Origin: Candidatus Scalindua japonica
GTDB lineage: Bacteria > Planctomycetota > Brocadiia > Brocadiales > Scalinduaceae
Reading direction: 5' to 3'
DNA length: 64,000 nucleotides
NCBI RefSeq assembly: GCF_002443295.1
Contig: NZ_BAOS01000005.1
Location: 124,001-188,000, forward strand
Each line of letters opens with the position of its first letter. The first letter of the stretch is position 1. A model generated the notes under the pieces. That model did not search any database. It was not told the DNA's origin and saw only the letters and a list, made by a program, of their open reading frames with translations. Made by a program: the position numbers and the translations under genes. This document shows, piece after piece, positions 2,386 to 54,840 of this stretch.

Positions 2386-3675
2386 ATGTCAAAAGGCACT
2401 TTGAAATATATCTCTGTTTCTACAGACCAACTAAAGGTAAATACGATTCTTGATTTTGACATATTTATTCAAACAAGTAGCAAGATCATCCTGTTCCGTA
2501 AGAGAGACCTTCCATTTACAGAAGAGACACTACAGAATCTTTCCGATAACAATGTAAAAACAATATTTGTTTCAGAAGAAGACAGGGAAAAAATTGAAAA
2601 TTATTACGATTCAACCAGGAACAATGGTAGCCAGAAATTGTCAAAAGAAGGCTTTGCGGCGCCATTTAATGATCCGAAAATGGTTGAGAAATACTTTGAA
2701 ACCTATGTTAATTACTACCCTATTGAAAATGAAAATTTACTGCCGGGTACGAGAATTAATTTTAAAGTTTTCAAGAAATCAAATATTGATACCGAAATTT
2801 ACATTGATCCAGATAATGAGGGCAATTTATCAAATATAGTACCACAAGATATCCATGATATAAAATGCGCCATTGCAATCCACAAAGAGGACATACCACT
2901 ATACAAAGAATATATAAATACACTCGCATTAGAACTCACTAAAAAGAATGATAATTCTTCAGAACTGCATTTTAGTATTTTACGTGAAAATTCTAAATTT
3001 ATTATCAAAGATATTCTAGAAGACCCAAGGAGTGGAGAAACTATTGAAAAAGCAGGTGATCTTGTCGAAACGTTAACAGGCACAATCCTGGAAAACCAGA
3101 ATAACTTTTCCAGCCTGCTAAAGATTACTACACATGATTATTACACGTATACACATTCGTTAAATGTCTGTAGCCTGAGTATTGGATTGGGAACAGAATT
3201 AAAATTAAAAAGAGACCCGGACCTCCTGGAACTTGGATTAGGAGCCCTGTTACACGACATCGGTAAGTGCTCTATAGACCTGCGTATTCTGAACAAACCC
3301 GGCAAATTGACAGAAAATGAGTTCAAGAAGATACAGGGCCATGTCATTGCCGGAAAAGAGATGCTAAAAAACAACAGTACAAAAATACCGAAAAATTCTC
3401 TTTACGCAATACTCCAACATCATGAAAAATTTACAGGTAAAGGATATCCGTATAATTTAAAAGACGATCAGATCCATTTATATGGGAGAATTGGAGCAAT
3501 TGTTGATTTCTACGATGCATTAACCACTAAACGTCCATACAAAAATGCATTATCTCCGTTTGAAGCTTTTAAACTTCTCAGCAAATTCCAAGATGATTAT
3601 GATAAGAAATTAATTAAAGAATTTATTGTCATGTTGGGAAAGCAAGGAAATTTAAAAACACACGAAAAGGCATGA
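2386..3675 (+). CDS. HD-GYP domain cyclic-di-GMP phosphodiesterase
   Basis: 429 aa. Residues ~1-230 are an N-terminal region of the type often found with HD-GYP proteins (it begins with the pattern IS-x-DQL-x-VNT-x-LDFDIFI). The HD-GYP domain covers ~235-420 and has the conserved pieces: H258 region (THSLN), HDIGK at 290-294, the HHE at 344-346 and GKGYP at 351-355, so metal ligands and the GYP loop look complete. Such enzymes hydrolyse cyclic-di-GMP to GMP and reduce the sessile signal, which fits a flagellar locus. No membrane segment is seen. ATG has an AGGAAA site. A FliA-type promoter lies upstream. Confidence 0.85.
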   Translation: MSKGTLKYISVSTDQLKVNTILDFDIFIQTSSKIILFRKRDLPFTEETLQNLSDNNVKTIFVSEEDREKIENYYDSTRNNGSQKLSKEGFAAPFNDPKMVEKYFETYVNYYPIENENLLPGTRINFKVFKKSNIDTEIYIDPDNEGNLSNIVPQDIHDIKCAIAIHKEDIPLYKEYINTLALELTKKNDNSSELHFSILRENSKFIIKDILEDPRSGETIEKAGDLVETLTGTILENQNNFSSLLKITTHDYYTYTHSLNVCSLSIGLGTELKLKRDPDLLELGLGALLHDIGKCSIDLRILNKPGKLTENEFKKIQGHVIAGKEMLKNNSTKIPKNSLYAILQHHEKFTGKGYPYNLKDDQIHLYGRIGAIVDFYDALTTKRPYKNALSPFEAFKLLSKFQDDYDKKLIKEFIVMLGKQGNLKTHEKA

Positions 3676-3857: not shown

Positions 3858-5489
3858 TCAGCTACTGACCAGACGCGTTTTAGCTACACCTTTACCTGAT
3901 TTTAGTAAGTCTATAAAGTTGTCCAATACTTCAGTATCAAAAAACCCTTTCATCTTTGCTTTCATTATCATACATGCATCATCTGATGTACAGGCTTTTG
4001 CGTATGGTCTGTCAGAAGTAATGGCACAATATACATCAATAATACGGGAAATTCTACCATAAAGACTAATCTCGTTTTCTTTAAGTCCATGAGGATAACC
4101 ACTGCCGTTAAAATTTTCATGATGAAGCAGAGCAAGCATGTAAGACTCTGGAGATACCTGTCCGGTCTCCTGTAACATTTGAAACCCTATCTCTGAGTGT
4201 TTTTTTATAATATTATATTCATCACTATTCAATTTTGAGGGCTTGTTAATTATCAAAGAATCAACGCTTCTCATGCCAATATCCTGTAGTAACAGACCCA
4301 ACGCAAACTCACCTGTCTCTTCAATATTCAAACCTATATGATGTGCAAAAACAAGACTCATCAAAGTAACATTTATGGAATGTCCGTATAAATAAATGTC
4401 ATATCCCTTTGTATTACTCAAACCAATATAGTCCTTTCCAGAACTCCTAACAAGCCCCATTGCACTCTCTATCCATTGCTTAGCCCTTTCTATATTACAT
4501 ACTTCTTCAGGTATAGCAGTTAAATCGCTGATAATATTAACTGCGACGTTCTGAATAACATCAAACTTTTCTTTCGAACAGGCACTATCATTCTGCACAA
4601 TTTTTTCCATATTAGTTTCCATAAAACGCAAATATTGTTTTCTACCGTTTTTTGGAACAAAAAGTTTATTAATATTTTTCCTTATAAACTCTTCTCTTTT
4701 TTCGTTAATAAATAATCTATCCCCACCCTTCCAATACAACACATAATTATTTTCACCGTTGAGACTATTTTTCAGATATAATTCACTTTTATTAAAAGGA
4801 CCTATCTTAAGACTTTTTAACGTAACCGGTAGAAATTTTTCTGTTTTATTATAATAATCATTATCAAGCTGCTGGACAATTGAAAGCCCTTTAGTCTTAC
4901 CTATTAGAGTTGCATTTCTGATAGCTATTGCTGAATAACGTGAGAGAATCCTAAGGAGGCCTAGATCTCTTTCATTAAAAGCCCTACCATCTGATTTTTC
5001 ATTAACATTCAAAACACCTATAACTTTTCCACTGATTATTAAAGGAACAGACATAAATGACTTACTCGAATATCTTGCATTGTTTCTCTTTGCAAATCTT
5101 GTATCAGTCTCTATGTTCTTAACAATAACATTCACTCCTTTCAAAGCAACCCACCCTGATATCCCATCGCCTACTTTTACTCTACACTCTTGCTCAATGT
5201 CCTCGGTTAGATGGTTTGAGTACTTTATACGAAGGGTGTCTCCCTCTATTAACATTAAAGAGGAGTATTTTACCTTCACTAAGGATGTGGTTAATTTATT
5301 AATCAACTTAAACAATTTTTCAAATTTAAACACTGAAGTTAAAGCTATGCCAATTGCCTCTTCATTTACTTCTACTTTGTTATCAACTACTCTACTATCA
5401 AAATATGTATTATTAATTTCAATACTATCCGATATCTTACCTTTGCCACTTCGTGTTGTATTATCTAGCATTGTTAACATTGTGATCAC
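3858..5489 (-). CDS. GAF-HD-GYP protein with altered HD motif
   Basis: 543 aa. A GAF sensor domain fills ~50-197 (GDGISGWVALKG, SVPLIISGKVIGVLNV). An HD-GYP-type domain fills ~325-535: H370 (YGHSIN), HHENFNGSGYP at 456-466, followed by a normal YGRI-x-x-IIDVYCAITSDRPY. The metal-binding HD pair at 402-403 is QD instead of HD, so phosphodiesterase activity is doubtful and the protein may be a c-di-GMP receptor. It is 14 bases downstream of a 75-aa ORF that has a sigma-54-type promoter. Confidence 0.8.
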   Translation of the reverse strand: MITMLTMLDNTTRSGKGKISDSIEINNTYFDSRVVDNKVEVNEEAIGIALTSVFKFEKLFKLINKLTTSLVKVKYSSLMLIEGDTLRIKYSNHLTEDIEQECRVKVGDGISGWVALKGVNVIVKNIETDTRFAKRNNARYSSKSFMSVPLIISGKVIGVLNVNEKSDGRAFNERDLGLLRILSRYSAIAIRNATLIGKTKGLSIVQQLDNDYYNKTEKFLPVTLKSLKIGPFNKSELYLKNSLNGENNYVLYWKGGDRLFINEKREEFIRKNINKLFVPKNGRKQYLRFMETNMEKIVQNDSACSKEKFDVIQNVAVNIISDLTAIPEEVCNIERAKQWIESAMGLVRSSGKDYIGLSNTKGYDIYLYGHSINVTLMSLVFAHHIGLNIEETGEFALGLLLQDIGMRSVDSLIINKPSKLNSDEYNIIKKHSEIGFQMLQETGQVSPESYMLALLHHENFNGSGYPHGLKENEISLYGRISRIIDVYCAITSDRPYAKACTSDDACMIMKAKMKGFFDTEVLDNFIDLLKSGKGVAKTRLVSS

Positions 5490-36291: not shown

Positions 36292-36786
36292 CTATTTCTT
36301 TGAGAATGCCTTAAAAAGGTCTTTCACCAAGTTCTCCAGACGATCAACTTCCTTAAAAATCATCTCAAAGAATTTTTCATTTGCGCTATCATTCCCTGTT
36401 CTCTCCTTCAGTACCTCTGCTGCCGCTGAGATACCCGCCAGCGGATTTCGTACTTTATGAGTAACTATAGCCATCAGTTCGTGCAGGTCATTAAAGTATT
36501 CAGTTTCTTTATATTTTTCTACAATGATTTTTACTCCTTCATCATCGCTTACATCAACACCGGATTTCTCATCATTACCAGATTTCTCTATCTGTTTGTT
36601 CAATGCAGCAGACAACTCTGCCTTTGTAATTAAATTCATCTTCAGCAGGATTACACCCAAAAGTTGATACTCCTGGTTTTTTTCCTGCAGGCATAGCGCT
36701 TTTTCAATATCAGAATCATTAATTTGACCATCTTCAACTAAAATCTGCCCCAGTTTTTTTTGATGTGAAACATTATCTTTTTCCAT
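36292..36786 (-). CDS. MshEN-like repeat and His-box protein without ATPase domain
   Basis: 164 aa. Residues 11-36 and 42-67 are two MshEN-like motifs (KLGQILVEDGQINDSDIEKAL; LLGVILLKMNLITKAELSAAL), the fold that binds c-di-GMP in some type II/IV secretion ATPases; the leading Arg of the consensus is replaced by Lys or Leu. Residues ~100-160 are a dimerisation/phosphoacceptor helix pair with His110 in THKVRNPLAGI. The protein ends there, with no ATPase domain, no frameshift remnant and a normal stop. It could be a phosphotransfer protein served by another kinase. Neighbours are two response regulators. Confidence 0.7.
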   Translation of the reverse strand: MEKDNVSHQKKLGQILVEDGQINDSDIEKALCLQEKNQEYQLLGVILLKMNLITKAELSAALNKQIEKSGNDEKSGVDVSDDEGVKIIVEKYKETEYFNDLHELMAIVTHKVRNPLAGISAAAEVLKERTGNDSANEKFFEMIFKEVDRLENLVKDLFKAFSKK

Positions 36787-43188: not shown

Positions 43189-43569
43189 ATGACAAAAGTT
43201 TTATTAGTTGATGATTCTGCAGTAATGAGAAAAATAATCCAGAGAAATATTAAGGAGACAGGTTTAATTGTTGACGAATTTGTCGAAGCGGGAGATGGTA
43301 ATCAAGCATTGGACAAGGTTAACGCTAATGGAGATTTAGACCTGATATTACTTGACTGGAATATGCCAAACATGTCAGGAATAGAATTTGTAAAGACGTT
43401 GAGATCGTTAAACCTGTCGAAAAGGATACCTGTTGTAATGGTAACCACAGAAGGTTCTGATGCTAAAGTAAGTGAAGCGAAGGATAGTGGCGCGGACGGT
43501 TATCTTACAAAACCATTTACTGGCGACCAACTCCGTGACACACTCGGGGACTATCTATTAGTACAATAA
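43189..43569 (+). CDS. cheY: Chemotaxis response regulator CheY
   Basis: 126 aa, a single receiver domain. Acidic pocket VDDSAVMRK, phospho-Asp in LILLDWNMPNMSG, Thr in MVTTEG and Lys in LTKPF are all present. CheA phosphorylates it and CheY-P binds FliM to change rotation. It heads the che cluster after a sigma-28-like promoter; AAAGGAATGG lies upstream of the ATG. A 274-base gap separates it from the next gene. Confidence 0.93.
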   Translation: MTKVLLVDDSAVMRKIIQRNIKETGLIVDEFVEAGDGNQALDKVNANGDLDLILLDWNMPNMSGIEFVKTLRSLNLSKRIPVVMVTTEGSDAKVSEAKDSGADGYLTKPFTGDQLRDTLGDYLLVQ

Positions 43570-43843
43570 TCAGCAAGTAAAGACAAGAAGACTCTCAAAC
43601 TGTCTACAGGTGTAACATGCGACCGTCAGAACTCATGGATGATGACGTTGTTTTCTTCAGAAGATTATAGTTTCAGTTTTGGTCTTATCGTTAAAAAGAA
43701 TGATTAAAGTTACGAATCCAGTATTCTGGGTTCCGGATGGCAGAATACTGATTTCGCCGCCTGCCATTCGATAGAAAGTTTATTTGTATGGCAATATCGC
43801 ATTCTATCTTTAAAACAAAATTAATACAATATAATCAATAACA

Positions 43844-44839
43844 ATGGTTGAAACCTTGGAATCAAGTATCTGTCCGTCAAAACTTAAAGAATTAATAGAC
43901 AACACAATAAGTAAATTAAATGCGGACTGCACCAGTCTTTTAGGAAGAAACTTTGGTATATCCAAACCTAACATAGAAATATCAACTCTCGGTAATTTAA
44001 TAGAAAGTAATGATAGAAATTACTTCTTGATCAAATCAGAACTTGAAGAGTCTTATCATGGCAACATATGTACTATACTGCAACTAAAGGATGCTATTAA
44101 AATCGGCAGTATTCTCCTGGGTTCTAATGACGCAGAGATTAAGGTAAAACTTGAGAAGGAGGACCTTGACGAGGACTGTACTGATGGAGTTACTGAGTTT
44201 AGCGGACAATTTTCAGGAATAATTGATTCCGTGTTCAGAAACAAATTATCCAAACCTGTACATATAAAACTTTCATCATGCACAACTATAAACAAAGATA
44301 ATGCCAGTGATATCCTGCAAGACTCACTTTCAGATGAATATCTACATCTTTCGTCCCTTTTATTGATTAAAGGCTTTGATACCGGACAATACAATATGTT
44401 TTTTCCAATTGAATCAGTAGATGAGTTCTTTGGAGAAACGATTCATGAAAAGACGACAAATGTACTTATTACAGATAATTCCGTTGCGGATGTCAGAAAA
44501 ATCAAAAAATATCTCATTAATACTCCATTCAAAGTCATTTGTTCCACTAATGCTAAAGAAACATTTACTATTCTGCAAAAGGAAAAGATACACTTGATAC
44601 TTCTTGAATTAAATTTACCATTACAAAACGGGATCGAGATCTGCAAAAGCATTAAGAAAACTCCATATACCAGAGGTATCCCATTGGTAATGATTTCCGG
44701 CAAACCAACACAGGAAGCTGTTATTGAATCGTTACAAGCAGGTGCGAGAGATTTTCTTGTCAAACCTTTTAATAAAGAACAACTTTTAAAAAAAATTAAT
44801 AAATTCAAAGTCAAAGAAAAACCTGCAACTTTATTTTAA
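43844..44839 (+). CDS. CheX/CheC-like domain fused to a receiver with Asp to Glu
   Basis: 331 aa. Residues ~30-195 resemble a CheC/CheX/FliM-middle-type domain (ISTLGNLIE, ILQLKDAIKIGSILLGS, VTEFSGQFSGIIDSVF), but the catalytic E-x2-N-x2 pattern of active CheC phosphatases is not obvious. Residues ~205-325 are a receiver. Its phospho-acceptor position is Glu255 (LILLELNLP), and the acidic pair is DN instead of DD; Ser (MISGKP) and Lys (VKPF) remain. Glu often mimics phosphorylation, so the domain may be locked on. It lies between cheY and cheA. Confidence 0.75.
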   Translation: MVETLESSICPSKLKELIDNTISKLNADCTSLLGRNFGISKPNIEISTLGNLIESNDRNYFLIKSELEESYHGNICTILQLKDAIKIGSILLGSNDAEIKVKLEKEDLDEDCTDGVTEFSGQFSGIIDSVFRNKLSKPVHIKLSSCTTINKDNASDILQDSLSDEYLHLSSLLLIKGFDTGQYNMFFPIESVDEFFGETIHEKTTNVLITDNSVADVRKIKKYLINTPFKVICSTNAKETFTILQKEKIHLILLELNLPLQNGIEICKSIKKTPYTRGIPLVMISGKPTQEAVIESLQAGARDFLVKPFNKEQLLKKINKFKVKEKPATLF

Positions 44840-44980
44840 ACCATGAGAAGCGTAGTTTGAGAATCTGATCAATGATGAAGGTTTTCACATACTACACATT
44901 AAATTTACTATACTTCTGTGTAAACAGTAAAACCAATGACACCTCTTATACATCTGATAATAAGAAAGGACGTGATCTAA

Positions 44981-47128
44981 ATGAGTAATCTTAATACAGA
45001 AGTACAAAACACTGATACTGCGAATGATGAACTTACTTTGGACATTAAAGAAGATTCAGAAATATTCCTCGAATTTTTATCCGAGGTACTTGATCATCTG
45101 GATGAATCAGAAAGCAATATTCTCAGCATAGAGGATGAAGTTTGTGATTATGAAAAAATCAATGCAATTTTCAGGAGTATCCATAGTATAAAAGGAAGCG
45201 CTGGGTTTCTCGGATTGATAAATATGCAGCGGCTCAGCCATGAACTGGAAGCGCTACTGGACAAGGCACGAAAAGGTGAAATAACCATAACACAGGAAAT
45301 TATCAATATTTCTTTAAACGCAATAGACGCACTGAGGAAACTCCGGGATAATCTGTCAATTAAAGTAGACAGAGAACTCGGAAATATCTCTGACACTGAG
45401 GTATCGACGCAGGAACAGCCTATCAATATTCAAGAGTTCATAGACCGGATAACATCCATACTGAATGGAGATACCAAACCAAAAGAGATGGTAACTGAGT
45501 CACACAATACTGGATCCGTCAACGTTTTGAGCGGACATGAATTGCAGGAAAATACAAAACAAAATCCTGAAATTGATAACATGGAACCGTCAGGAGACTT
45601 CTGGTCTGACAAACTATCTGAACAATCGGAAAAAATGTTCCTTGGAGAGATACTTATAGACGAAGGAACCATTACTCAAGAGCAACTTGACAAAGCTATC
45701 GATGAGGGAAACAAAAAAATCGGTGAAATACTCATTGAAGATGGAGCTACTACTCCCGAAAAAATTGAAAAGGCCCTTAATGAACAGAAACCTATCGGTC
45801 AGATTCTGGCCGAGAAAGGTGATATCTCTGAACCTCAGCTTGATAATGCGTTAAAACAACAAGAAAAGAAAGTAGGAGAAATACTTGTAGAAAAAGGTAT
45901 TGCAACTCCTGATAAAATAGATTCAGCTTTAAAGACACAACAGGCACAGAGAAGTATGAAATTACAATCACGGACTGTCAAGGTAGATACCGGCAAACTG
46001 GACAATCTGTTTGACCTGGTAGGAGAACTCGTAATTGCCAATACACTAATTTGTGGAGAGATGAAGTCTGTAAATAATAACAGTGCAAGTAAAAACCTCT
46101 CACAATTAACGAAAATTACCAAGGATATTCAGGACCAGGTCATGTCAATGAGAATGGTCACCCTGAAGCAAACATTCCAGAAAATGTCAAGGCTGGTAAG
46201 AGATGTGTCTCAACATTCAGGAAAAAATGTTAAATTTCACATCACTGGTGAAGAGACGGAGCTCGATAAAAATGTTATTGAAGAAATTGCCGACCCACTC
46301 GTACATATTCTCAGGAATTCAGTAGATCATGGTATTGAGTCGGAGGAGGATAGGCTTGCTAAAGGCAAACCGAAAGAGGGTTCAGTAACATTAAGCGCCT
46401 TTCATAGAGGTGGAAATATCATTATAGAGATCAAGGACGACGGTAAAGGCCTGCAAAAAGAGAGAATTCTGAAGAAGGCCGTTGATAAAGGACTGGTAAG
46501 CAAACAAACATCAATGACTGATAATCAAATATACAATTTGATTTTTGCACCCGGTCTGTCTACTGCAGATAAGGTTACTAATATTTCAGGTCGTGGTGTA
46601 GGAATGGATGTAGTAAGGAAAAACATTGAGAAGCTCCGCGGTAAAGTTGATGTAACTTCACAGGAAGGAGTAGGATCCACATTTACTATCAAACTACCTC
46701 TAACATTGGCAATAATAGACGGCATAGTCGTTAATGTTGGCGATACTAAATACATCATACCTACAGTATCCATAGAGGAGTCTCTGCAGCCTAAGAGAGA
46801 AGAGATCAGCACCGTTAAAAACCAGGGTGAAGTAGTCAACATCAGGGGAAACCTTTTGTCACTTGTGCGCCTGCATAAACTTTATGATATTAATACTACA
46901 AAGACAGTTCCATGGGAATCTATTGTGGTAGTTGTAGAAGGGGCTGACGGGAAATATGGAGTATTAGTCGATGAACTTCTGGGGCAACAACAGGTTGTAA
47001 TCAAAAGCCTGGGAGACAGGTTCAAAAATGTGAAAGGTATTTCAGGAAGTGCTATACTAGGCGACGGAAAAGTTGGTTTAATTCTGGATGTCACTGGGGT
47101 GAAAGAAGCATTTGTCGGGCACAACTAA
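44981..47128 (+). CDS. cheA: Chemotaxis kinase CheA with four MshEN-like linker repeats
   Basis: 715 aa. Hpt domain at ~25-130 with His68 (FRSIHSIKGSAGFLG). No recognisable P2 domain; instead residues 221-325 hold four ~26-residue repeats starting at 221, 247, 272 and 298 (LGEILIDEGTITQEQLDKAI and three like it). Then the dimerisation domain (TGKLDNLFDLVGELVIA), ATPase domain (HILRNSVDHGIE, DDGKGL, GRGVGMDVV) and the CheW-like domain to the end. The start ATG follows AAAGGACG. It phosphorylates CheY and CheB. The repeats resemble the c-di-GMP-binding MshEN fold but lack its leading Arg. Confidence 0.93.
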   Translation: MSNLNTEVQNTDTANDELTLDIKEDSEIFLEFLSEVLDHLDESESNILSIEDEVCDYEKINAIFRSIHSIKGSAGFLGLINMQRLSHELEALLDKARKGEITITQEIINISLNAIDALRKLRDNLSIKVDRELGNISDTEVSTQEQPINIQEFIDRITSILNGDTKPKEMVTESHNTGSVNVLSGHELQENTKQNPEIDNMEPSGDFWSDKLSEQSEKMFLGEILIDEGTITQEQLDKAIDEGNKKIGEILIEDGATTPEKIEKALNEQKPIGQILAEKGDISEPQLDNALKQQEKKVGEILVEKGIATPDKIDSALKTQQAQRSMKLQSRTVKVDTGKLDNLFDLVGELVIANTLICGEMKSVNNNSASKNLSQLTKITKDIQDQVMSMRMVTLKQTFQKMSRLVRDVSQHSGKNVKFHITGEETELDKNVIEEIADPLVHILRNSVDHGIESEEDRLAKGKPKEGSVTLSAFHRGGNIIIEIKDDGKGLQKERILKKAVDKGLVSKQTSMTDNQIYNLIFAPGLSTADKVTNISGRGVGMDVVRKNIEKLRGKVDVTSQEGVGSTFTIKLPLTLAIIDGIVVNVGDTKYIIPTVSIEESLQPKREEISTVKNQGEVVNIRGNLLSLVRLHKLYDINTTKTVPWESIVVVVEGADGKYGVLVDELLGQQQVVIKSLGDRFKNVKGISGSAILGDGKVGLILDVTGVKEAFVGHN

Positions 47129-47164
47129 CTATTGAAAATTGTGGAGAAAAACACCACCTCTTAT

Positions 47165-47291
47165 CATTCTGAATGACCGGAGAGAGCGAAAAATTCCTTG
47201 ACGCTATATCAGGCAAATATTCTGAGAAGTTTCTCAGAACAAGGTGCAGAGAGTCTTCCTTCGTTACTCACTCAGAAAACAAGGTGTAGAG
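47165..47291. repeat. Decayed intergenic repeats between cheA and cheW
   Basis: CATTCTGAATGACCGGAGAG at 47165 and a reversed relative at 47251-47280 belong to the CATTCTGAGTGAGCGAAG-type repeat family. Between them is the hairpin TCTGAGAA-GT-TTCTCAGA (47221-47238). CTCAGAACAAGGTGCAGAG (47233-47251) recurs as CTCAGAAAACAAGGTGTAGA (47271-47290). Confidence 0.5.
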
Positions 47292-47331
47292 TGATATCTG
47301 ACAATATATAATAAAAAAAAAGGAGAACAAT

Positions 47332-47823
47332 ATGGAAGCAGTGACAGAAAACATAAAAAATGCAGTGCATGCAGGGAAATATTTAACATTTGTCTTGAGT
47401 GATGAAGAGTACGGTATAGAAATTCTTAAAGTCAGAGAAATTATTGGTCTTATGGATATTACAACGGTACCACAGACTCCGGATTATATGAAAGGTGTCA
47501 TTAATCTCAGGGGTAAAGTCATACCGGTAATTGATCTTAGATTAAAATTTTCTATGCAGGAAGAGGAACATACTCAAGCAACATGTACGATTGTAGTAGA
47601 AGTCGGCAACACGTTAATTGGAATAATAGTAGACAGCGTCTCAGAAGTATCTGATATTGGCAGCGAAGAGATCCGGGAAACACCAAATCTCGGACAAGGT
47701 ATAGATACGAACTATATCATGGGCATGGGTAAGTTAAAGGAAAAACTTATTATACTGCTTGATATTGATAAAGTGCTGTCGGAAGGAGAGCTGGAAATGG
47801 TGGAAGAGATAGCAGCGAATTAA
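47332..47823 (+). CDS. cheW: Chemotaxis coupling protein CheW
   Basis: 163 aa. Typical CheW features: YLTFVLSDEEYGIEILKVREIIG, TTVPQTPDYMKGVINLRGKVIPVIDLR and a C-terminal GMGKLKEKLIILLDIDKVLS. It joins chemoreceptors to CheA. No receptor gene is present in this window. A strong AAGGAG precedes the ATG. Confidence 0.95.
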   Translation: MEAVTENIKNAVHAGKYLTFVLSDEEYGIEILKVREIIGLMDITTVPQTPDYMKGVINLRGKVIPVIDLRLKFSMQEEEHTQATCTIVVEVGNTLIGIIVDSVSEVSDIGSEEIRETPNLGQGIDTNYIMGMGKLKEKLIILLDIDKVLSEGELEMVEEIAAN

Positions 47824-47962
47824 AAACAGCAAAGATCTGTATAATAATTTAGCAATGCTGACAAGGATATACATTACCATTTATCTATCTTTGTACCATA
47901 CAGTAAACCATATTTATCTATGATAGATAGTATAAAAACCTTGTGGTTTGGAAGGAGCAGTT

Positions 47963-48601
47963 ATGAATATAGGTGATTTGGAAGGTAGTATTATTAACGC
48001 CATAAAAGATGCAACGAAGGAGGCGTTCTCCACTATGTTAATGACTGAGTTACATGCTGATGAATCTTTTGTCAAGAACGAAGAGAATGTCGCTTGCGAC
48101 CTGATATCATCCCTCCATTTCTTTAATGATAAGTATATGGTTAAGATAGCGTTATTTTGTGATGCTGCATCTGCCTGTCATATTGCCGGCACAATGCTTG
48201 GTATGGAAGTATCCGAAGTTGATGTGGATGTAAAGGATGCAATGGGTGAAATCGTAAATATGATTGCTGGAGGTGCAAAAGTAAAACTGGAAAGCAGGAT
48301 GGGAGAATTGCATCTTCTGACCCCCTGGATTATCTCTGCTCGAAACCTGAAAATTCCCTCTCGTTCCGATCGTAAAACAGGATTCATTATAGATTCACAG
48401 GCACGGTTTTCGTGGGTCATGACAAAGTTTTCTTTTGATAAAGGTACATTTATTGTAAGTGTGCTGCCGAACGAAGTTCCTCAGAACAGCGCAGATCACT
48501 CAGACAAGGATATAAATATACTGCAGCAAGAAATAGCAAACCTTAAAAAAGAGAATCTGACCCTGAGAGCAAAGTTTAAGGAAGTAAATATGGTTGTGTA
48601 A
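47963..48601 (+). CDS. cheX: CheX-like CheY-P phosphatase with C-terminal coiled coil
   Basis: 212 aa from ATG 47963 (AAGGAG six bases upstream). The CheX signature is DAMGEIVNMIAGGAK, which holds the Glu and Asn used to dephosphorylate CheY-P; the fold ends near residue 165. A C-terminal extension (ILQQEIANLKKENLTLRAKF) forms a short coiled coil, not usual in CheX. It would end the signal in an organism with no cheZ in this cluster. Confidence 0.8.
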   Translation: MNIGDLEGSIINAIKDATKEAFSTMLMTELHADESFVKNEENVACDLISSLHFFNDKYMVKIALFCDAASACHIAGTMLGMEVSEVDVDVKDAMGEIVNMIAGGAKVKLESRMGELHLLTPWIISARNLKIPSRSDRKTGFIIDSQARFSWVMTKFSFDKGTFIVSVLPNEVPQNSADHSDKDINILQQEIANLKKENLTLRAKFKEVNMVV

Positions 48602-48775
48602 ATATTTTGAACTAAGGTTCATGGAATGAATAGAATGTAGATTCCCTGGTTTATAATACATCTTTTTAAATTCCCTACTGTTGTTTTTTAAGGAATACTG
48701 GCACTACACAATTATTAAATTATTAAACAATTTTAACAGATTAGTTACTACTAATTTGTTTTCTAGAGAAAAACT

Positions 48776-49264
48776 ATGATAGTAAATAATAATGAAAATA
48801 TTGTTACGGTAGGCGTTGGTGATTTGAAAATTGCTCAGTCACCTAAAGTGATAAAAACCAGTCTTGGTTCATGTGTTGGTGTAGTTTTGTATGACAGCGT
48901 TCAGAAAGTTGGGGGGATGCTTCATTTAATGCTGCCTAACTGTAATGAAAGGGATGGCAAACCAGGTAAGTATGCTGACACCGGGATTCCTTTGTTATTA
49001 GACTTAATGGTAAACAAAGCAAAATCAAAAAAGAGTGTACTTACCGCAAAGATTTTTGGCGGAGCAAAGATGTTTAATGTCAGCAGCGAAATATTTGATA
49101 TAGGAAAATCTAATATTGCTGAAGCACAAAAAATTCTGGCAAAATATGGGATCAGAATAATTGCCTCAAGGTTAGGTGGTACCAAAGGGCATCAGATAAC
49201 ACTTGATACGGAAACCGGCATTGTTCAAAGCCGTATATTTGGAGAGCAAACAGAGAAATACTGA
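48776..49264 (+). CDS. cheD: Chemoreceptor glutamine deamidase CheD
   Basis: 162 aa. Catalytic Cys in TSLGSCVGVVLYD and His in GGMLHLMLPN; further on, AKIFGGAKMF and NIAEAQKILAKYGI are family hallmarks. CheD deamidates receptor glutamines and, with CheC, speeds CheY-P loss. cheC follows ~220 bases downstream. Confidence 0.94.
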   Translation: MIVNNNENIVTVGVGDLKIAQSPKVIKTSLGSCVGVVLYDSVQKVGGMLHLMLPNCNERDGKPGKYADTGIPLLLDLMVNKAKSKKSVLTAKIFGGAKMFNVSSEIFDIGKSNIAEAQKILAKYGIRIIASRLGGTKGHQITLDTETGIVQSRIFGEQTEKY

Positions 49265-49312
49265 ATCTATTGTTAATTTCAGATTTGTAAATTACTGAAT
49301 TTTTTTCTTTTA

Positions 49313-49350
49313 GTCATGATGAATAACCGGAGAAACTGAAGAATCTCTTA
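49313..49350 (+). repeat. Decayed intergenic repeat between cheD and cheC
   Basis: Reads like the CATTCTGAGTGAGCGAAG family: GTCATGATGAATAACCGGAG then CTGAAGAATCTCT. Compare 36211-36260 and 47165-47280. Confidence 0.4.
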
Positions 49351-49484
49351 TCAGAATAATGTAACTATCCTTGAAAATCATTTTGTAATTCTATACAGAA
49401 ACTCTTCGCTTCCTTCTCCATCAATCTGAAATTGTGTGTGAGGTAAAAATCAAAAATCTTAAATATAATGGAAGGATTTTAAAA

Positions 49485-50135
49485 ATGCGGATATCTAATG
49501 AACATTTAAAAATGTTGGATATTATTGTGAAGATCAGCATTGACAATGCCTCTCGTTCTTTTTCTAAGTCGATTAAGCACGCAGCATTGATTGAATTAGT
49601 TAAAACCGAACTGGTGGATATCAGCGAAATTACAGAAGAGATGAATAATGATTTTCGTGAAATGGTGGCCTCGATGTTACGTCTTGAAGGTTCACTGAAT
49701 GGAAAAATAATGTTCATGATCCCCCTGGATGGGGCGCTAATATTACAGGATTTCTATTTGCAGGAAACAACAGGTACGGCAAAAGAGTTTAATGAACTTA
49801 CTGAAGGTACTGTGCAGGAAATCGGAAACATTCTAGCAAGCGCTATAGGCAATACATTTGCTTCGGGTATGGGTTCAATGCTGCCAACTCCGCCGCAAGT
49901 ATTATGCGATTTTGCAGGATCAATATTCAACCAGCTTATTTTTGAAGAATCTATTAATAATGACAAAATACTTCTGACAGAGACAAAATTCAGACTGCAT
50001 GATACTGAGATAGATTGTTACTTTTTCTTACTTCCAGACTTAAGTACATTGGAACAATCATTAAGTAAATTTGAAAACAAGGATAATCTGAATAATTATA
50101 CCAGAAATAAAATAGACGTAGAGAAAATAACTTAA
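49485..50135 (+). CDS. cheC: CheY-P phosphatase CheC
   Basis: 216 aa from ATG 49485, with AAGGA eight bases upstream. Two CheC helices hold the active pairs: the second is clear as TEGTVQEIGNILASAIGNTFAS, with Glu and Asn; the first (HAALIELVKTELVDIS) is weaker and lacks the Asn. So perhaps only one site is active. CheC works with CheD. The gene lies between cheD and a stand-alone receiver. Confidence 0.8.
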   Translation: MRISNEHLKMLDIIVKISIDNASRSFSKSIKHAALIELVKTELVDISEITEEMNNDFREMVASMLRLEGSLNGKIMFMIPLDGALILQDFYLQETTGTAKEFNELTEGTVQEIGNILASAIGNTFASGMGSMLPTPPQVLCDFAGSIFNQLIFEESINNDKILLTETKFRLHDTEIDCYFFLLPDLSTLEQSLSKFENKDNLNNYTRNKIDVEKIT

Positions 50136-50193
50136 ATAATTATCTTACTTCGAAGTAAGGAGTTATTATACAACATGCTGCAGGAGAAAAATC

Positions 50194-50559
50194 ATGAAAA
50201 GAGTATTAATAGTAGATGATGCAAGTGTTGTCAGATTACTAATAAAAAAGGTACTCAAGGCCGGTAACTTCGAATTTGCAGGAGAGGCCATAAATGGAAA
50301 AGACGCATTATCAAAGTATAAGGAACTGCGACCTGATATAGTAACAATGGACATAACAATGCCTGAAACAGACGGTATTCAGGCGACAAAGGATATAATA
50401 GCATTTGATGAAAACGCAAAGATAATAATGTTATCCGGAATTGATCAAAAAGAGATGTTATGGAAAGCGATGAAAGCTGGAGCGACTTCTTACATCGTAA
50501 AACCATTTGAAAATGACAGAATATTGTCAGCTCTGAATGAGATCACTGAAAGTAAATAG
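50194..50559 (+). CDS. Stand-alone receiver domain, CheY-like
   Basis: 121 aa. VDDASVVRLLI, phospho-Asp in VTMDITMPETDG, Ser in MLSGID and Lys in VKPF. A second CheY, more like the regulators found next to cheC/cheX or cheB. It may be a phosphate sink or output. GGAGAAAAATC lies before the ATG. Confidence 0.9.
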   Translation: MKRVLIVDDASVVRLLIKKVLKAGNFEFAGEAINGKDALSKYKELRPDIVTMDITMPETDGIQATKDIIAFDENAKIIMLSGIDQKEMLWKAMKAGATSYIVKPFENDRILSALNEITESK

Positions 50560-50680
50560 TTCGTACTCAGAGCCTGCAAAGCAAAGAAACTACATATTAT
50601 TTATATGGAAACCCTGTTTGCTTAAGTCTGGAATTTTGTAGTTTTCTTTAATTCTGAAACTTGAATAATTGGAGTTAATT

Positions 50681-51514
50681 ATGCAATATGTTTTATCAAA
50701 CCAAGAGTTTGAGTTATTTAGAAGTTTAATTTATGACACATGTGGAATTAGTTTGACTTTATCCAAAAAGGAGCTGGTAAAAGCAAGGTTAACAAAACGT
50801 TTAATCAATACTGGTTTAAACACGTTTAACGATTATTATGATTATGTTACTAAAACAGATAAAACGGGCAGAGAGTTAATCCATCTGATTGATAATATTT
50901 CAACAAATAAAACAGATTTCTTCAGGGAAAAAAAACACTTTGATTTTTTGAATACAACTCTTTTACCAGCTCTTATTTCAAACAAAGAGCAGAGAAAGGA
51001 TAAGAGGTTGCGTATATGGTGTGCGGCAGCATCTTCAGGAGAAGAACCTTATACTCTTGCCATGACCGTTTTTAACCATATAAAATCTGACAGTGAATGG
51101 GATGTTAAAATCCTTGCGACAGATATCTCTACAAGAATATTACAAAAAGCCATTGACGGTACATATAAAACAGAATTGCTGAAAGATATCCCGCCCAGGA
51201 TTACTTCGGCGCATTTCTCTAAAGTATCGGTTGACAATATAAACTACTATAGGGCAAAAGATCATTTGAAAAAAATAATAACATTCAGAAGATTCAACTT
51301 GATGACAGAGAAGTTCCCATTTAAAAACCCATTTGATTTTATCTTTTGCAGGAATGTTATGATCTACTTTGATCCGAAAACCCAACAACGACTTGTCGCA
51401 AAATTTTATAATTGCTTACCGAAGAGAGGTTATCTTTTCATTGGACATTCAGAAACATTATCTAAAAACGATAATAAATTTAACTATGTACAACCTGCAG
51501 TTTATCAGAAATAA
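50681..51514 (+). CDS. cheR: Chemoreceptor methyltransferase CheR
   Basis: 277 aa from ATG 50681 (GGAG six bases upstream). N-terminal helical domain (FELFRSLIYDTCGISL), then the SAM-binding domain: TDFFREKKHFDFL, RIWCAAASSGEEPYTLAM, ILATDIS and DFIFCRNVMIYFDPKTQ. It methylates receptor glutamates, opposed by CheB encoded downstream. Confidence 0.95.
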   Translation: MQYVLSNQEFELFRSLIYDTCGISLTLSKKELVKARLTKRLINTGLNTFNDYYDYVTKTDKTGRELIHLIDNISTNKTDFFREKKHFDFLNTTLLPALISNKEQRKDKRLRIWCAAASSGEEPYTLAMTVFNHIKSDSEWDVKILATDISTRILQKAIDGTYKTELLKDIPPRITSAHFSKVSVDNINYYRAKDHLKKIITFRRFNLMTEKFPFKNPFDFIFCRNVMIYFDPKTQQRLVAKFYNCLPKRGYLFIGHSETLSKNDNKFNYVQPAVYQK

Positions 51515-51593
51515 CAATATGCGAATGCAGATTGAGGAGAAAAAGTTATGGATACAAATTTGAATAATTGGCTATATTTATAAGGAGAAAGTA

Positions 51594-53120
51594 GTGAAAT
51601 ACATAATAATTAGTATAATATTAATAATTACACTTTTGAGTAATGCTATTTACCTATTTCACGGTCCTGCTGCTGAACAAAAAGCTAATGAGAGTGAAAA
51701 TATATTTACATACAAAACGCCCGATAATGAAATATGGATTAATAAGAACAAGCTGGCGCTGGAACGTATGAGGAACCACTACATAAGTGGAAGTGACAGT
51801 ATAATCGATAGTTTAGAAGCTGAAAACCAGCACGTAACACCGCTACAACAGCTGGAACCTGAGGCAAGGAAGATGTTGACAGCTTCAAAAAACAATTCAC
51901 CTTATTTCTTCATTTTTAACAGCTTGATTATAGTTTCAGGCTTTATTTTCATAAGCCTTGTAACACTTAAACGTAAACAAACTGAACAATCGGAAACGTC
52001 CTCTCACCGTCAGACTGAAAAAATTATTTCCAAAATACAAACGACAGAAAAATCGGAAAGAAATCAATCATGTTATAGCGAGCAGATCCTCAACAAATCA
52101 AAAGAAATTATTTGTGAGATACTTCAAATAATTAATGAGCATTCAGATAACAATATTTCGCCAAAACAAGGCTTACTTGATAATTTTGCAAAGGAACAAG
52201 TTAAAAAGATCAAGACATCTTCAACTATAGAGGATTTACTCACAATAGAAGAGGACATTAAAAAGATAATTCCAAAACACTTCGAAACCACAAAATGTCT
52301 TGTTAATACAAAATTTAATGAATTAAGAGCAATGTTAAATGAATTAGCTGAAGACTTTGGATCAATAACGGAAGACAACACAGACTTTTCAGAACAGATT
52401 AAAGACAGTATGTCACATATTGAAAAAGCTATGAAATTGGACGAAATAAAGCAGATAAGAAAAAAGATAACACTGGAAACATCCTCAATGCGAAAAGTAA
52501 TCGCTAAAAAGCAGGAGAAAGATGCCATCATTATTGACTCATTAACACATAAAGTTAAAGCGATTAAAGAGGAGCTTGCCTCAGCGAAGAAAGAAGTATT
52601 GATAGATGGTTTAACTCAAATTTACAATAGAAAGGCATTTGATAAAAAAATAGGTGATTTCTTTAAAAAGAAAACGAACATGAAGCGCCCATTCACCCTT
52701 GCCATGGTTGACATAGACTATTTTAAAAAAGTAAATGACGAATTCGGGCATACAGTAGGTGATGAGATACTGAAAAAGGTTGCCAGAACAATCAAAGAAA
52801 CTTTCAGGTTAAATGATTTTGTAGCAAGATATGGTGGAGAAGAATTCTCAGTTATGATTGACAGGATTGATAGTCACTATATCATGGACGTATGCGAAAG
52901 ACTACGCGTAGCAATTGAAGAAATAAGTTTTATGGTTGACTCTGAAAGAATACCAACTTCTGCAAGTATTGGAATTGCGTTCAGCAAACATTCAGATACT
53001 CCAAAAACATTAATAGACAGAGCTGATAAGGCTTTGTATTTCGCAAAAGAGAGCGGTAGAAATACAATCAAATCAGAAGTTGATCTGTCTGAAACCCTAC
53101 TGGAGACAGTTTCAAACTGA
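51594..53120 (+). CDS. Membrane-bound GGDEF diguanylate cyclase
   Basis: 508 aa from GTG with AAGGAG upstream. Two membrane helices (~2-24 and ~103-121) enclose a ~75-residue periplasmic part; a long helical cytoplasmic region follows to ~335. The GGDEF domain (~340-505) has LIDGLTQIYNRKAFD, GGEEF at 414-418 and an inhibitory RxxD site (RLND) at 405-408, so it should be active and product-inhibited. It makes c-di-GMP inside the che cluster, between cheR and cheB. Confidence 0.88.
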   Translation: MKYIIISIILIITLLSNAIYLFHGPAAEQKANESENIFTYKTPDNEIWINKNKLALERMRNHYISGSDSIIDSLEAENQHVTPLQQLEPEARKMLTASKNNSPYFFIFNSLIIVSGFIFISLVTLKRKQTEQSETSSHRQTEKIISKIQTTEKSERNQSCYSEQILNKSKEIICEILQIINEHSDNNISPKQGLLDNFAKEQVKKIKTSSTIEDLLTIEEDIKKIIPKHFETTKCLVNTKFNELRAMLNELAEDFGSITEDNTDFSEQIKDSMSHIEKAMKLDEIKQIRKKITLETSSMRKVIAKKQEKDAIIIDSLTHKVKAIKEELASAKKEVLIDGLTQIYNRKAFDKKIGDFFKKKTNMKRPFTLAMVDIDYFKKVNDEFGHTVGDEILKKVARTIKETFRLNDFVARYGGEEFSVMIDRIDSHYIMDVCERLRVAIEEISFMVDSERIPTSASIGIAFSKHSDTPKTLIDRADKALYFAKESGRNTIKSEVDLSETLLETVSN

Positions 53121-53143
53121 AATAGTATCTATTTGAGAAACTG

Positions 53144-54250
53144 ATGATGAATAATAAAATTAAAGTATTAATTGTTGATGATTCTGCTGTTGTCAGAAAA
53201 ATATTATCCGGCGGTTTAAGCAAGTATAATGATGTCGAAATAGTCGGAACAGCACCGGATCCGTTTATAGCCAGGAATAAAATTATTAAATTCAAGCCGG
53301 ACGTACTTACGCTTGATGTTGAAATGCCAAAAATGGATGGAATCACATTTCTTAATAAACTGATGACACACTATCCTATACCCACAATCATGGTAAGCTC
53401 ACTTACTCAGGAAGGTTGTGATGCGGCATTAAAGGCGCTGGAAGTTGGCGCTGTAGACTTTGTCGCAAAGCCGACAAACCACTTGGGCAGTGATGTTGAA
53501 AATGTAATAGATGAGTTATACACCAAAATAAAACATGCATCCAGGAGCAATGTAATAAGACTCAATCAAAAAAGAATATTAGGGTGCAATGGAAATAATA
53601 ACCGTTCACAAATAAACAGATCTCAAATACATTCCGGATCTCGACCTGATAATGGAAAAAATTATACGGTTTTTAAAGGCACTAACAAAGTTATATTTAT
53701 TGGTGCCTCAACCGGAGGTACTGAAGCCTTGAAGGATGTCTTAATAAAGATGCCTCCCGACTCTCCTGCCATAGCTATTGTACAACACATGCCGCCAATT
53801 TTTACAAAGGCATTTGCGGAAAGAATGGACTCATTATGCTCTATCACTGTTAAGGAAGGTAAAAATGGTGACAGCCTTTTACCGGGGCAGGCAATAATAG
53901 CGCCAGGAAACTATCATATGAGCATAAAAAGAAACGGAGCTATGTACAGCATTGCAACAAATCAGGATGCGCCCATACATCACCAAAGACCCGCGGTAGA
54001 CGTTCTCTTCGATTCAGCATCAAAATATGTTGGGCCTAATGCAATAGGAGTTATTATGACCGGAATGGGATCTGATGGTGCAACCGGACTGTTAAAAATG
54101 AAAGAATCAGGAGCAAAAACTATTGCTCAAGATGAAGATAGTTGTGTTGTGTTTGGTATGCCAAAAGAAGCCATCAAATTAGGAGCTGCTGATAAAGTCG
54201 TACCATTACACAAAATCTCAGAGAATATACTATCTTTCTTAAAAAACTGA
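53144..54250 (+). CDS. cheB: Chemotaxis methylesterase/response regulator CheB
   Basis: 368 aa. Receiver (VDDSAVVRK; LTLDVEMPKMDG; VAKP), then the methylesterase/deamidase domain with Ser in FIGASTGGTEAL, His in QHMPPIFTKAFAERM and Asp in MTGMGSDGATGL. The linker has NNNRSQINRSQ, a polar stretch. It removes receptor methyl groups. Its stop overlaps the next ATG by one base. Confidence 0.96.
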   Translation: MMNNKIKVLIVDDSAVVRKILSGGLSKYNDVEIVGTAPDPFIARNKIIKFKPDVLTLDVEMPKMDGITFLNKLMTHYPIPTIMVSSLTQEGCDAALKALEVGAVDFVAKPTNHLGSDVENVIDELYTKIKHASRSNVIRLNQKRILGCNGNNNRSQINRSQIHSGSRPDNGKNYTVFKGTNKVIFIGASTGGTEALKDVLIKMPPDSPAIAIVQHMPPIFTKAFAERMDSLCSITVKEGKNGDSLLPGQAIIAPGNYHMSIKRNGAMYSIATNQDAPIHHQRPAVDVLFDSASKYVGPNAIGVIMTGMGSDGATGLLKMKESGAKTIAQDEDSCVVFGMPKEAIKLGAADKVVPLHKISENILSFLKN

Positions 54251-54840
54251 TGAAAGGCCATAATCAATACCGCAGTGAAGTTGAGATCATAAAAGATGCA
54301 CAAGTGAATATCACTGATGCTAACACCAATAATGACAAAACTTTGATAAGCCTTTTAAGGCATGAAATCTCACAACTCAAAGCAACTAACGCCTCTCTGA
54401 ATGTAAAATTACAAAGCCTTCGTGAAAAGCACTTACCCCATGTCTTCTTAGTTGAAGATGATTATGACACTTCACAGATCATTGCTGAAATCCTTCATGA
54501 TGATTACAACGTAATTGATGCTGGAAATGGAATTGAGGCACTAAGTATCTTACGCAAAGTAGGTAACGCTGGTAGTAGCGTCAAAAAAATTGATACAATA
54601 TTATTAGATATTAATTTACCCGGCATGTGTGGGTTTACATTATGCCATGAGGTAAAAAAGAAAATGAAATTGAACATCCCCATCATTGTATGTACGGCAA
54701 GAAATACTAAAAAGGATGTAATAAGGGCAATCAGTTCTGGAGCAAATGACTATATTATCAAACCATTTCAGGAAAAAACTTTAGTAAGTAAAGTTAACAA
54801 ATGGACAAAGGTAAACAAAAGATTACATATCAAATTATAA
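54250..54840 (+). CDS. Response regulator with N-terminal coiled coil
   Basis: 196 aa. Residues ~30-60 form a short coiled coil (LISLLRHEISQLKATNASLNV); the rest is a receiver with VEDDYD, phospho-Asp in ILLDINLPGM, Thr in CTARN and Lys in IKPF. Coupled to cheB. No output domain, so it may act through the coiled coil. Last gene of the che cluster; its stop lies 3 bases from that of the convergent 349-aa gene. Confidence 0.85.
   Translation: MKGHNQYRSEVEIIKDAQVNITDANTNNDKTLISLLRHEISQLKATNASLNVKLQSLREKHLPHVFLVEDDYDTSQIIAEILHDDYNVIDAGNGIEALSILRKVGNAGSSVKKIDTILLDINLPGMCGFTLCHEVKKKMKLNIPIIVCTARNTKKDVIRAISSGANDYIIKPFQEKTLVSKVNKWTKVNKRLHIKL

Follow-up and report, generated by a model that had tools for sequence, protein, structure and literature searches.

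The CheA of Candidatus Scalindua japonica carries four MshEN-type units, u1 to u4, in the tether between its Hpt (P1) and dimerisation (P3) domains. They make up two tandem MshEN_N-type modules. We consider it probable that these modules bind one c-di-GMP per pair (u3-u4 most likely, u1-u2 possibly), that binding would stiffen or bend the tether and so give the kinase a direct input, and that the four units came about by duplication. By computation we identified the domain, fixed its position, traced its duplication, recovered the fold of u3-u4 and found the ligand-contact positions largely conserved; from the sequence we infer that this CheA would bind c-di-GMP.

The cheA gene and its setting

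The gene lies in the window, the whole stretch of 64,000 nucleotides that was analysed. All four core domains of the CheA class (Hpt, H-kinase_dim, HATPase_c and CheW) are found in its product by Pfam, and a genome-wide Pfam search gives this protein as the sole match to H-kinase_dim in Candidatus Scalindua japonica. The surrounding che cluster runs cheY, CheX-like/REC, cheA, cheW, cheX, cheD, cheX-like, cheY2, cheR, GGDEF, cheB, REC; CheX, REC and GGDEF were assigned by Pfam, and cheY, cheW, cheD, cheR and cheB by reading the sequence. Three of the encoded proteins are CheX-like or putatively so (43844-44839, 47948-48601 and 49434-50135, + strand), one of them with a C-terminal receiver domain. 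The product of 47948-48601 alone is a clear Pfam CheX, and that of 43844-44839 is assigned by reading only. The viral contigs scanned for the cheA-type protein of this locus gave no match.

Table 1 Features of the cheA locus, with coordinates in the window.
Feature	Coordinates	Strand	Extent	Evidence	Sequence
che cluster	43189..54840	+	twelve genes, all on one strand, gaps ≤274 bp	ORF table, spacing	
cheA	44981..47128	+	715 aa	Pfam core domains Hpt, H-kinase_dim, HATPase_c, CheW	
Hpt (P1)	45068..45337	+	residues 30-119	PF01627, E 4.5e-14; helices mostly pLDDT >90	
Disordered linker, without folded P2	45482..45625	+	residues 168-215	pLDDT, Pfam	
MshEN-type unit 1 (u1)	45638..45709	+	residues 220-243	PSSM, NF053729 (pair u1-u2)	FLGEILIDEGTITQEQLDKAIDEG
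MshEN-type unit 2 (u2)	45716..45787	+	residues 246-269	PSSM, NF053729	KIGEILIEDGATTPEKIEKALNEQ
MshEN-type unit 3 (u3)	45791..45862	+	residues 271-294	NF053729 (pair u3-u4), pLDDT 92-96 in full-length model	PIGQILAEKGDISEPQLDNALKQQ
MshEN-type unit 4 (u4)	45869..45940	+	residues 297-320	u3-u4 superposition on MshE; Gln320 conserved	KVGEILVEKGIATPDKIDSALKTQ
Dimerisation domain (P3), H-kinase_dim	45968..46150	+	residues 330-390	PF02895, E 1.2e-12	
HATPase (P4), HATPase_c	46289..46705	+	residues 437-575	PF02518	
CheW-like (P5)	46721..47101	+	residues 581-707	PF01584	
Diguanylate cyclase in che cluster	51594..53120	+	intact GGEEF, RxxD (RLND) I-site	Pfam GGDEF, 7.5e-43; motif reading	

Four MshEN-type units precede the dimerisation domain

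The original prediction, made from the DNA letters, had placed four MshEN-like repeats of about 26 residues at residues 221-325, between Hpt and the dimerisation domain. Pfam confirms the placement, with Hpt at residues 30-119 and H-kinase_dim at 330-390. The number of units also holds; their extent is corrected to 24 residues each within residues 220-320, and they are separated by 2, 1 and 2 residues. Scored with a PSSM derived from related units, these four among them, u1-u4 reach 42-57, against a maximum of 7.4 over 500 whole-protein shuffles. NF053729, the NCBIfam model of the MshE-type c-di-GMP motif, has a curated cut-off of 38 bits and gives 51.2 bits for u1-u2, 50.3 for u3-u4 and 89.2 for the whole protein; among 58 aligned CheAs, 32 match it at E <1e-9.

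Searched against the PDB with phmmer, the isolated fragment retrieves PilF (1.1e-14), MshE (1.8e-4) and also PilB. When a profile of the pair is aligned by hhalign with a handful of MshEN pairs, the match has 99.2 per cent probability; the pairs used came from MshE, from three PilF domains and from two proteins encoded in the same genome that exceed the Pfam MshEN cut-off. PF05157 (T2SSE_N/MshEN), the profile that the prediction had pointed to, has no match at E up to 1 in the whole protein or the fragment, and it is NF053729 that recognises both pairs. The failure of PF05157 fits a missing C-terminal α/β subdomain, since only about 10 residues separate u4 from the dimerisation domain: the CheA units are the MshEN N-subdomain only.

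Two further Pfam families come close in the whole protein, FumaraseC_C (PF10415; 27.2 bits, cut-off 32.5) and DUF4388 (PF14332; 23.3 bits, cut-off 25). Their best stretches span about 30-36 profile positions, which is one unit's length or slightly more. The isolated fragment exceeds both cut-offs; we judged these to be single-unit matches to a common helix-turn-helix pattern and set them aside. Sequence, profile-profile and structure comparisons agree, and the MshEN assignment of u1-u4 is right.

Predicted structure of the modules

In the AlphaFold2 model of the full-length protein, u3-u4 folds into four helices with pLDDT 92-96. The u1-u2 region is mostly below 50, which counts against our explanation; its poor modelling is probably due to most relatives having one pair only. 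When the fragment is modelled by itself, eight helices appear at a mean pLDDT of about 76, four of them formed by u1-u2 with moderate confidence. As the pTM of this model is low (0.51), the relative packing of the two pairs was left uninterpreted.

The best 13 Foldseek matches of the fragment model are all N-domains of MshE, PilF or PilB, and complexes with c-di-GMP lead at 1.1-1.3 Å. The u3-u4 model superposes on c-di-GMP-bound MshE at 1.1 Å over 57 columns, with a VIA-align Z of 9.5, and on the c-di-GMP-bound forms of MshE and PilF at 1.1-1.2 Å. With a best value of 0.099, the E-values from Foldseek are weak, as one would expect of a helical domain of 57 residues. The u3-u4 model is thus a four-helix bundle like MshEN_N, and the check by structure prediction that had been suggested supports the assignment.

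Residues of the putative ligand site

Each motif of MshE contributes Arg1, Leu2, the backbone of Gly3, Leu17, Leu21 and Gln24 to c-di-GMP binding (PMC5013675), Gln24 by hydrogen bonds to ribose and phosphate. In this CheA, position 1 is F in u1, K in u2, P in u3 and K in u4. The prediction had taken the missing leading Arg to leave binding open. Arg is indeed absent, and the obstacle is smaller than feared: PilF GSPII-B binds c-di-GMP with a KD of 6 nM using Lys and Leu at this position, by which the consensus was widened to R/K/L (PMC11731258). The Lys of u2 and u4 recurs in 10/10 members of the four-unit family, where u1 mostly has an aromatic residue and u3 mostly Pro. Gly3 and the hydrophobic positions 17/21 are present in all four units. 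The lack of a C-subdomain is no obstacle to binding either, since the N-subdomain by itself binds c-di-GMP at 350 nM in MshE and 54 nM in PilF.

Gln24 is kept in 10/10 members of the four-unit family in u2 and u3 and in 9/10 in u4; u1 has lost it in 9/10, and in this CheA it is replaced by Gly. The Gln24 of the last unit (Gln320 here) occurs in 58/58 aligned CheAs and that of the preceding unit in 52/57, figures that may be somewhat inflated by loci having been selected with a Gln-bearing query. Only 27/58 keep Gly10, the structural Gly in that last unit. A single Gln-to-Glu change in PilF weakens binding 77- to 158-fold, and the double change abolishes it. In apo PilF the counterpart of the last-unit Gln, Gln218, adopts no defined conformation (PMC11731258); conservation of Gln24 therefore points to a ligand and is hardly explained by folding alone.

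Several features count against binding. Position 1 of u3 is Pro, a residue untried in the cited binders; u2-u4 have Ile or Val in place of Leu at position 2; no unit keeps both of the hydrophobic positions 11-12 intact; and the spacers have 1-2 residues versus 5 in MshE. XpsE and PilF GSPII-A, closely related modules with the same fold, do not bind c-di-GMP (PMC5013675, PMC12002112). The CheA modules might likewise have lost nucleotide binding and act as a folded spacer or a protein-protein contact in the P1-P3 tether, a reading in keeping with this ligand-free fold, the missing Gln of u1, the deviations at positions 11-12 and the range of inter-unit spacers across CheAs (1 to 17 residues). 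We think it unlikely: it leaves the retention of a Gln that is conformationally undefined in apo PilF at odds with loss of the ligand, and the same holds for the invariant position-1 Lys in u2 and u4 of the four-unit family. If c-di-GMP is bound, as we prefer, these residues make u3-u4 the more likely site, whereas u1-u2 probably binds weakly or has a structural role.

Another cyclic dinucleotide, or another small ligand, could in principle occupy the same pocket, as cGAMP does weakly in MshE (KD 330 µM; PMC5013675). Guanine, however, is read by main-chain amides, those of the conserved Gly and of the residue after it; u1-u4 all have this Gly, and GGDEF proteins are encoded in the genome. We give this reading hardly any weight.

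The P2 position

The repeats had been proposed to sit where P2 would be. Pfam recognises neither P2 nor a CheY-binding domain, whether in this CheA or in its 57 relatives, and PF07194 has no match anywhere in the Candidatus Scalindua japonica genome. In the AlphaFold2 model, residues 168-233 have pLDDT <50, leaving only disorder where P2 is expected. Such absence is ordinary, since P2 is missing from more than half of CheAs, whose models show an unstructured region there (PMC10782961).

The proposal holds in so far as neither Pfam nor the model reveals a P2 in this protein, and fails as a general statement of replacement. In at least 43 of 80 other CheAs, a further conserved domain lies between Hpt and the MshEN-type units, which therefore cannot be taken simply as a P2 stand-in. 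Docking of CheY or CheB to the modules, in place of P2, would suit their location between Hpt and the dimerisation domain of a CheA in which P2 was not detected. That further domain speaks against it, as do the more than half of CheAs that have an unstructured region instead of P2 (PMC10782961) and the fact that the residues conserved are those of the ligand site; we regard docking as very improbable.

The extra domain of these CheAs (at least 43/80) lies at residues ~150-230 (L043, L048, L060, L079, L095), with the sequence RIRF...GxDP...LxxLG...DPExCYL...VFxFV and the motifs GxDP and DPxxC[YF]. It has no Pfam match, and the single copy tried has no PDB sequence match. It is possibly an alternative P2.

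Other CheAs and duplication of the pair

Similar CheAs were surmised to exist elsewhere, and they do, across many phyla. A profile covering the pair and the first part of the dimerisation domain matches 80 loci in named genomes. These belong to delta-, gamma- and betaproteobacteria, Nitrospira, Spirochaetes, Planctomycetes, Omnitrophota, Riflebacteria, Chitinispirillia and one actinobacterium. By motif matrix, 71 of the CheAs have two units, four have four and five have one. The pair stands immediately N-terminal of the dimerisation domain; spacers of 1-2 residues occur at 24 of 83 unit junctions. In a phylum sample of 27 readable CheAs, chosen by the dimerisation domain alone and blind to the units, five have the pair, one has an isolated weak match elsewhere in the protein (13 bits) and the rest score nothing.

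All members read of the Scalindua-type family (10/10) have four units, and a second family of the same order, presumably Brocadiaceae, has two. The best named relatives of the Scalindua-type CheA are Ca. Scalindua sp. and Ca. Brocadiaceae bacterium S225. Within the four-unit family, mean identity is 10.9 of 24 positions for u1/u3 and 13.1 for u2/u4, versus 8.6-10.1 for other combinations. This likeness of u1 to u3 and of u2 to u4 indicates duplication of the whole pair, and thus, by sequence comparison, that the four-unit form would be a lineage-specific duplication of an ancestral single pair still present in relatives.

The architecture is not unique: MshEN-CheA has been in print since 2016 and is covered by a current automatic NCBI model. 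In the main text of Wang et al. 2016 it takes up one sentence, among several domain combinations (PMC5013675), and the main text of a 2023 survey of CheAs has no MshEN (PMC10782961). Our search, which covered the open literature, found no paper in which a CheA bearing an MshEN/GSPII domain was tested with c-di-GMP.

c-di-GMP genes in the cluster and genome

A GGDEF gene in the cluster and two HD-GYP genes nearby had been invoked as a sign of c-di-GMP input. The former is confirmed (Table 1). The HD-GYP genes (2386-3675 and 3858-5489) turn out to lie about 40 kb from the che cluster. One of them, 3858-5489 (− strand), encodes a GAF + HD-GYP protein with QDxGM where HDxGK is expected; this protein is probably catalytically inactive and perhaps serves as a c-di-GMP- or partner-binding regulator. 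The genome encodes 8 GGDEF and 4 PilZ proteins and several ATPase-type proteins with MshEN, so that c-di-GMP is very likely made and used. A motif search of flanks of up to 5 kb, often too short for a GGDEF gene as far downstream as at this locus, finds GGDEF neighbours at 2 and HD-GYP neighbours at 2 of the 80 other cheA loci. Within such flanks, we rejected either as a general cheA partner.

MshEN-type units also occur in other genes. A short one in the window, 36292-36786 (− strand), encodes 164 residues: an MshEN-type pair, given 39 bits by NF053729 (cut-off 38), and then HisKA (2.8e-12), without an ATPase domain. The adjoining gene looks, on reading, like one for a sigma-54-type response regulator. 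Beyond the window, a frame of 241 residues (G000:C1:302589-303218, + strand) has at least four MshE-type motif matches, some overlapping, and is apparently a stand-alone array of units.

A possible route from c-di-GMP to the kinase

Known links of c-di-GMP to flagellar motility run through motor or adaptor proteins; MapZ is a PilZ adaptor in chemotaxis. In this CheA, two four-helix modules, u1-u2 and u3-u4, would sit in the P1-P3 tether itself. The u3-u4 module, beside P3, would bind one c-di-GMP between its two motifs, and u1-u2 possibly one as well. Binding would stiffen or bend the tether, and the altered shape could change how P1 meets its partners, the ATPase domain or CheY. The chemotaxis kinase would thereby gain a direct c-di-GMP input, which we hold to be the best reading; any effect on the kinase, up or down, is more conjectural.

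A bolder version might make CheA a direct c-di-GMP receptor in many bacteria, with the Scalindua-type anammox duplication giving each subunit a high-affinity site beside a degenerate one (low-affinity or structural) and hence a graded kinase output. We offer it tentatively, as something that could well prove too far-reaching. If true, a c-di-GMP site within the chemotaxis kinase would tie the sessile-motile switch to chemotaxis at the central enzyme. The MshEN-type CheA, missing from the main text of the 2023 survey, is widespread and has an invariant ligand-contact residue.

Comparison with known systems

The MshEN-CheA of Wang et al. 2016, as given in the main text (PMC5013675), likewise joins MshEN to the CheA kinase. 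Single-pair CheAs of Brocadiaceae, Nitrospira, Desulfovibrio and gamma-/betaproteobacteria have the pair at the same site before the dimerisation domain, with Gln24 conserved; they differ in having one pair instead of two, in the extra domain that many carry after Hpt, and in spacers of up to 17 residues. Four units before the dimerisation domain are also found in the CheAs of a deltaproteobacterium (L042) and an Omnitrophota bacterium (L045), but these proteins are longer and their spacers have 6-7 residues versus 1-2 here.

Thermus thermophilus PilF, the best PDB sequence match of the CheA fragment, also has tandem MshEN-type domains, GSPII-A/B/C, with Lys or Leu at position 1 (PMC11731258, PMC12002112). 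Unlike the CheA units, its GSPII domains add an α/β C-terminal subdomain, and its output is through a pilus ATPase where CheA has a histidine kinase. The N-domain of Vibrio cholerae MshE (5HTL) contains the four-helix c-di-GMP-binding subdomain to which u3-u4 is fitted at 1.1 Å over 57 columns, whereas its spacer has 5 residues, both of its motifs have Arg at position 1 and a C-terminal subdomain is added.
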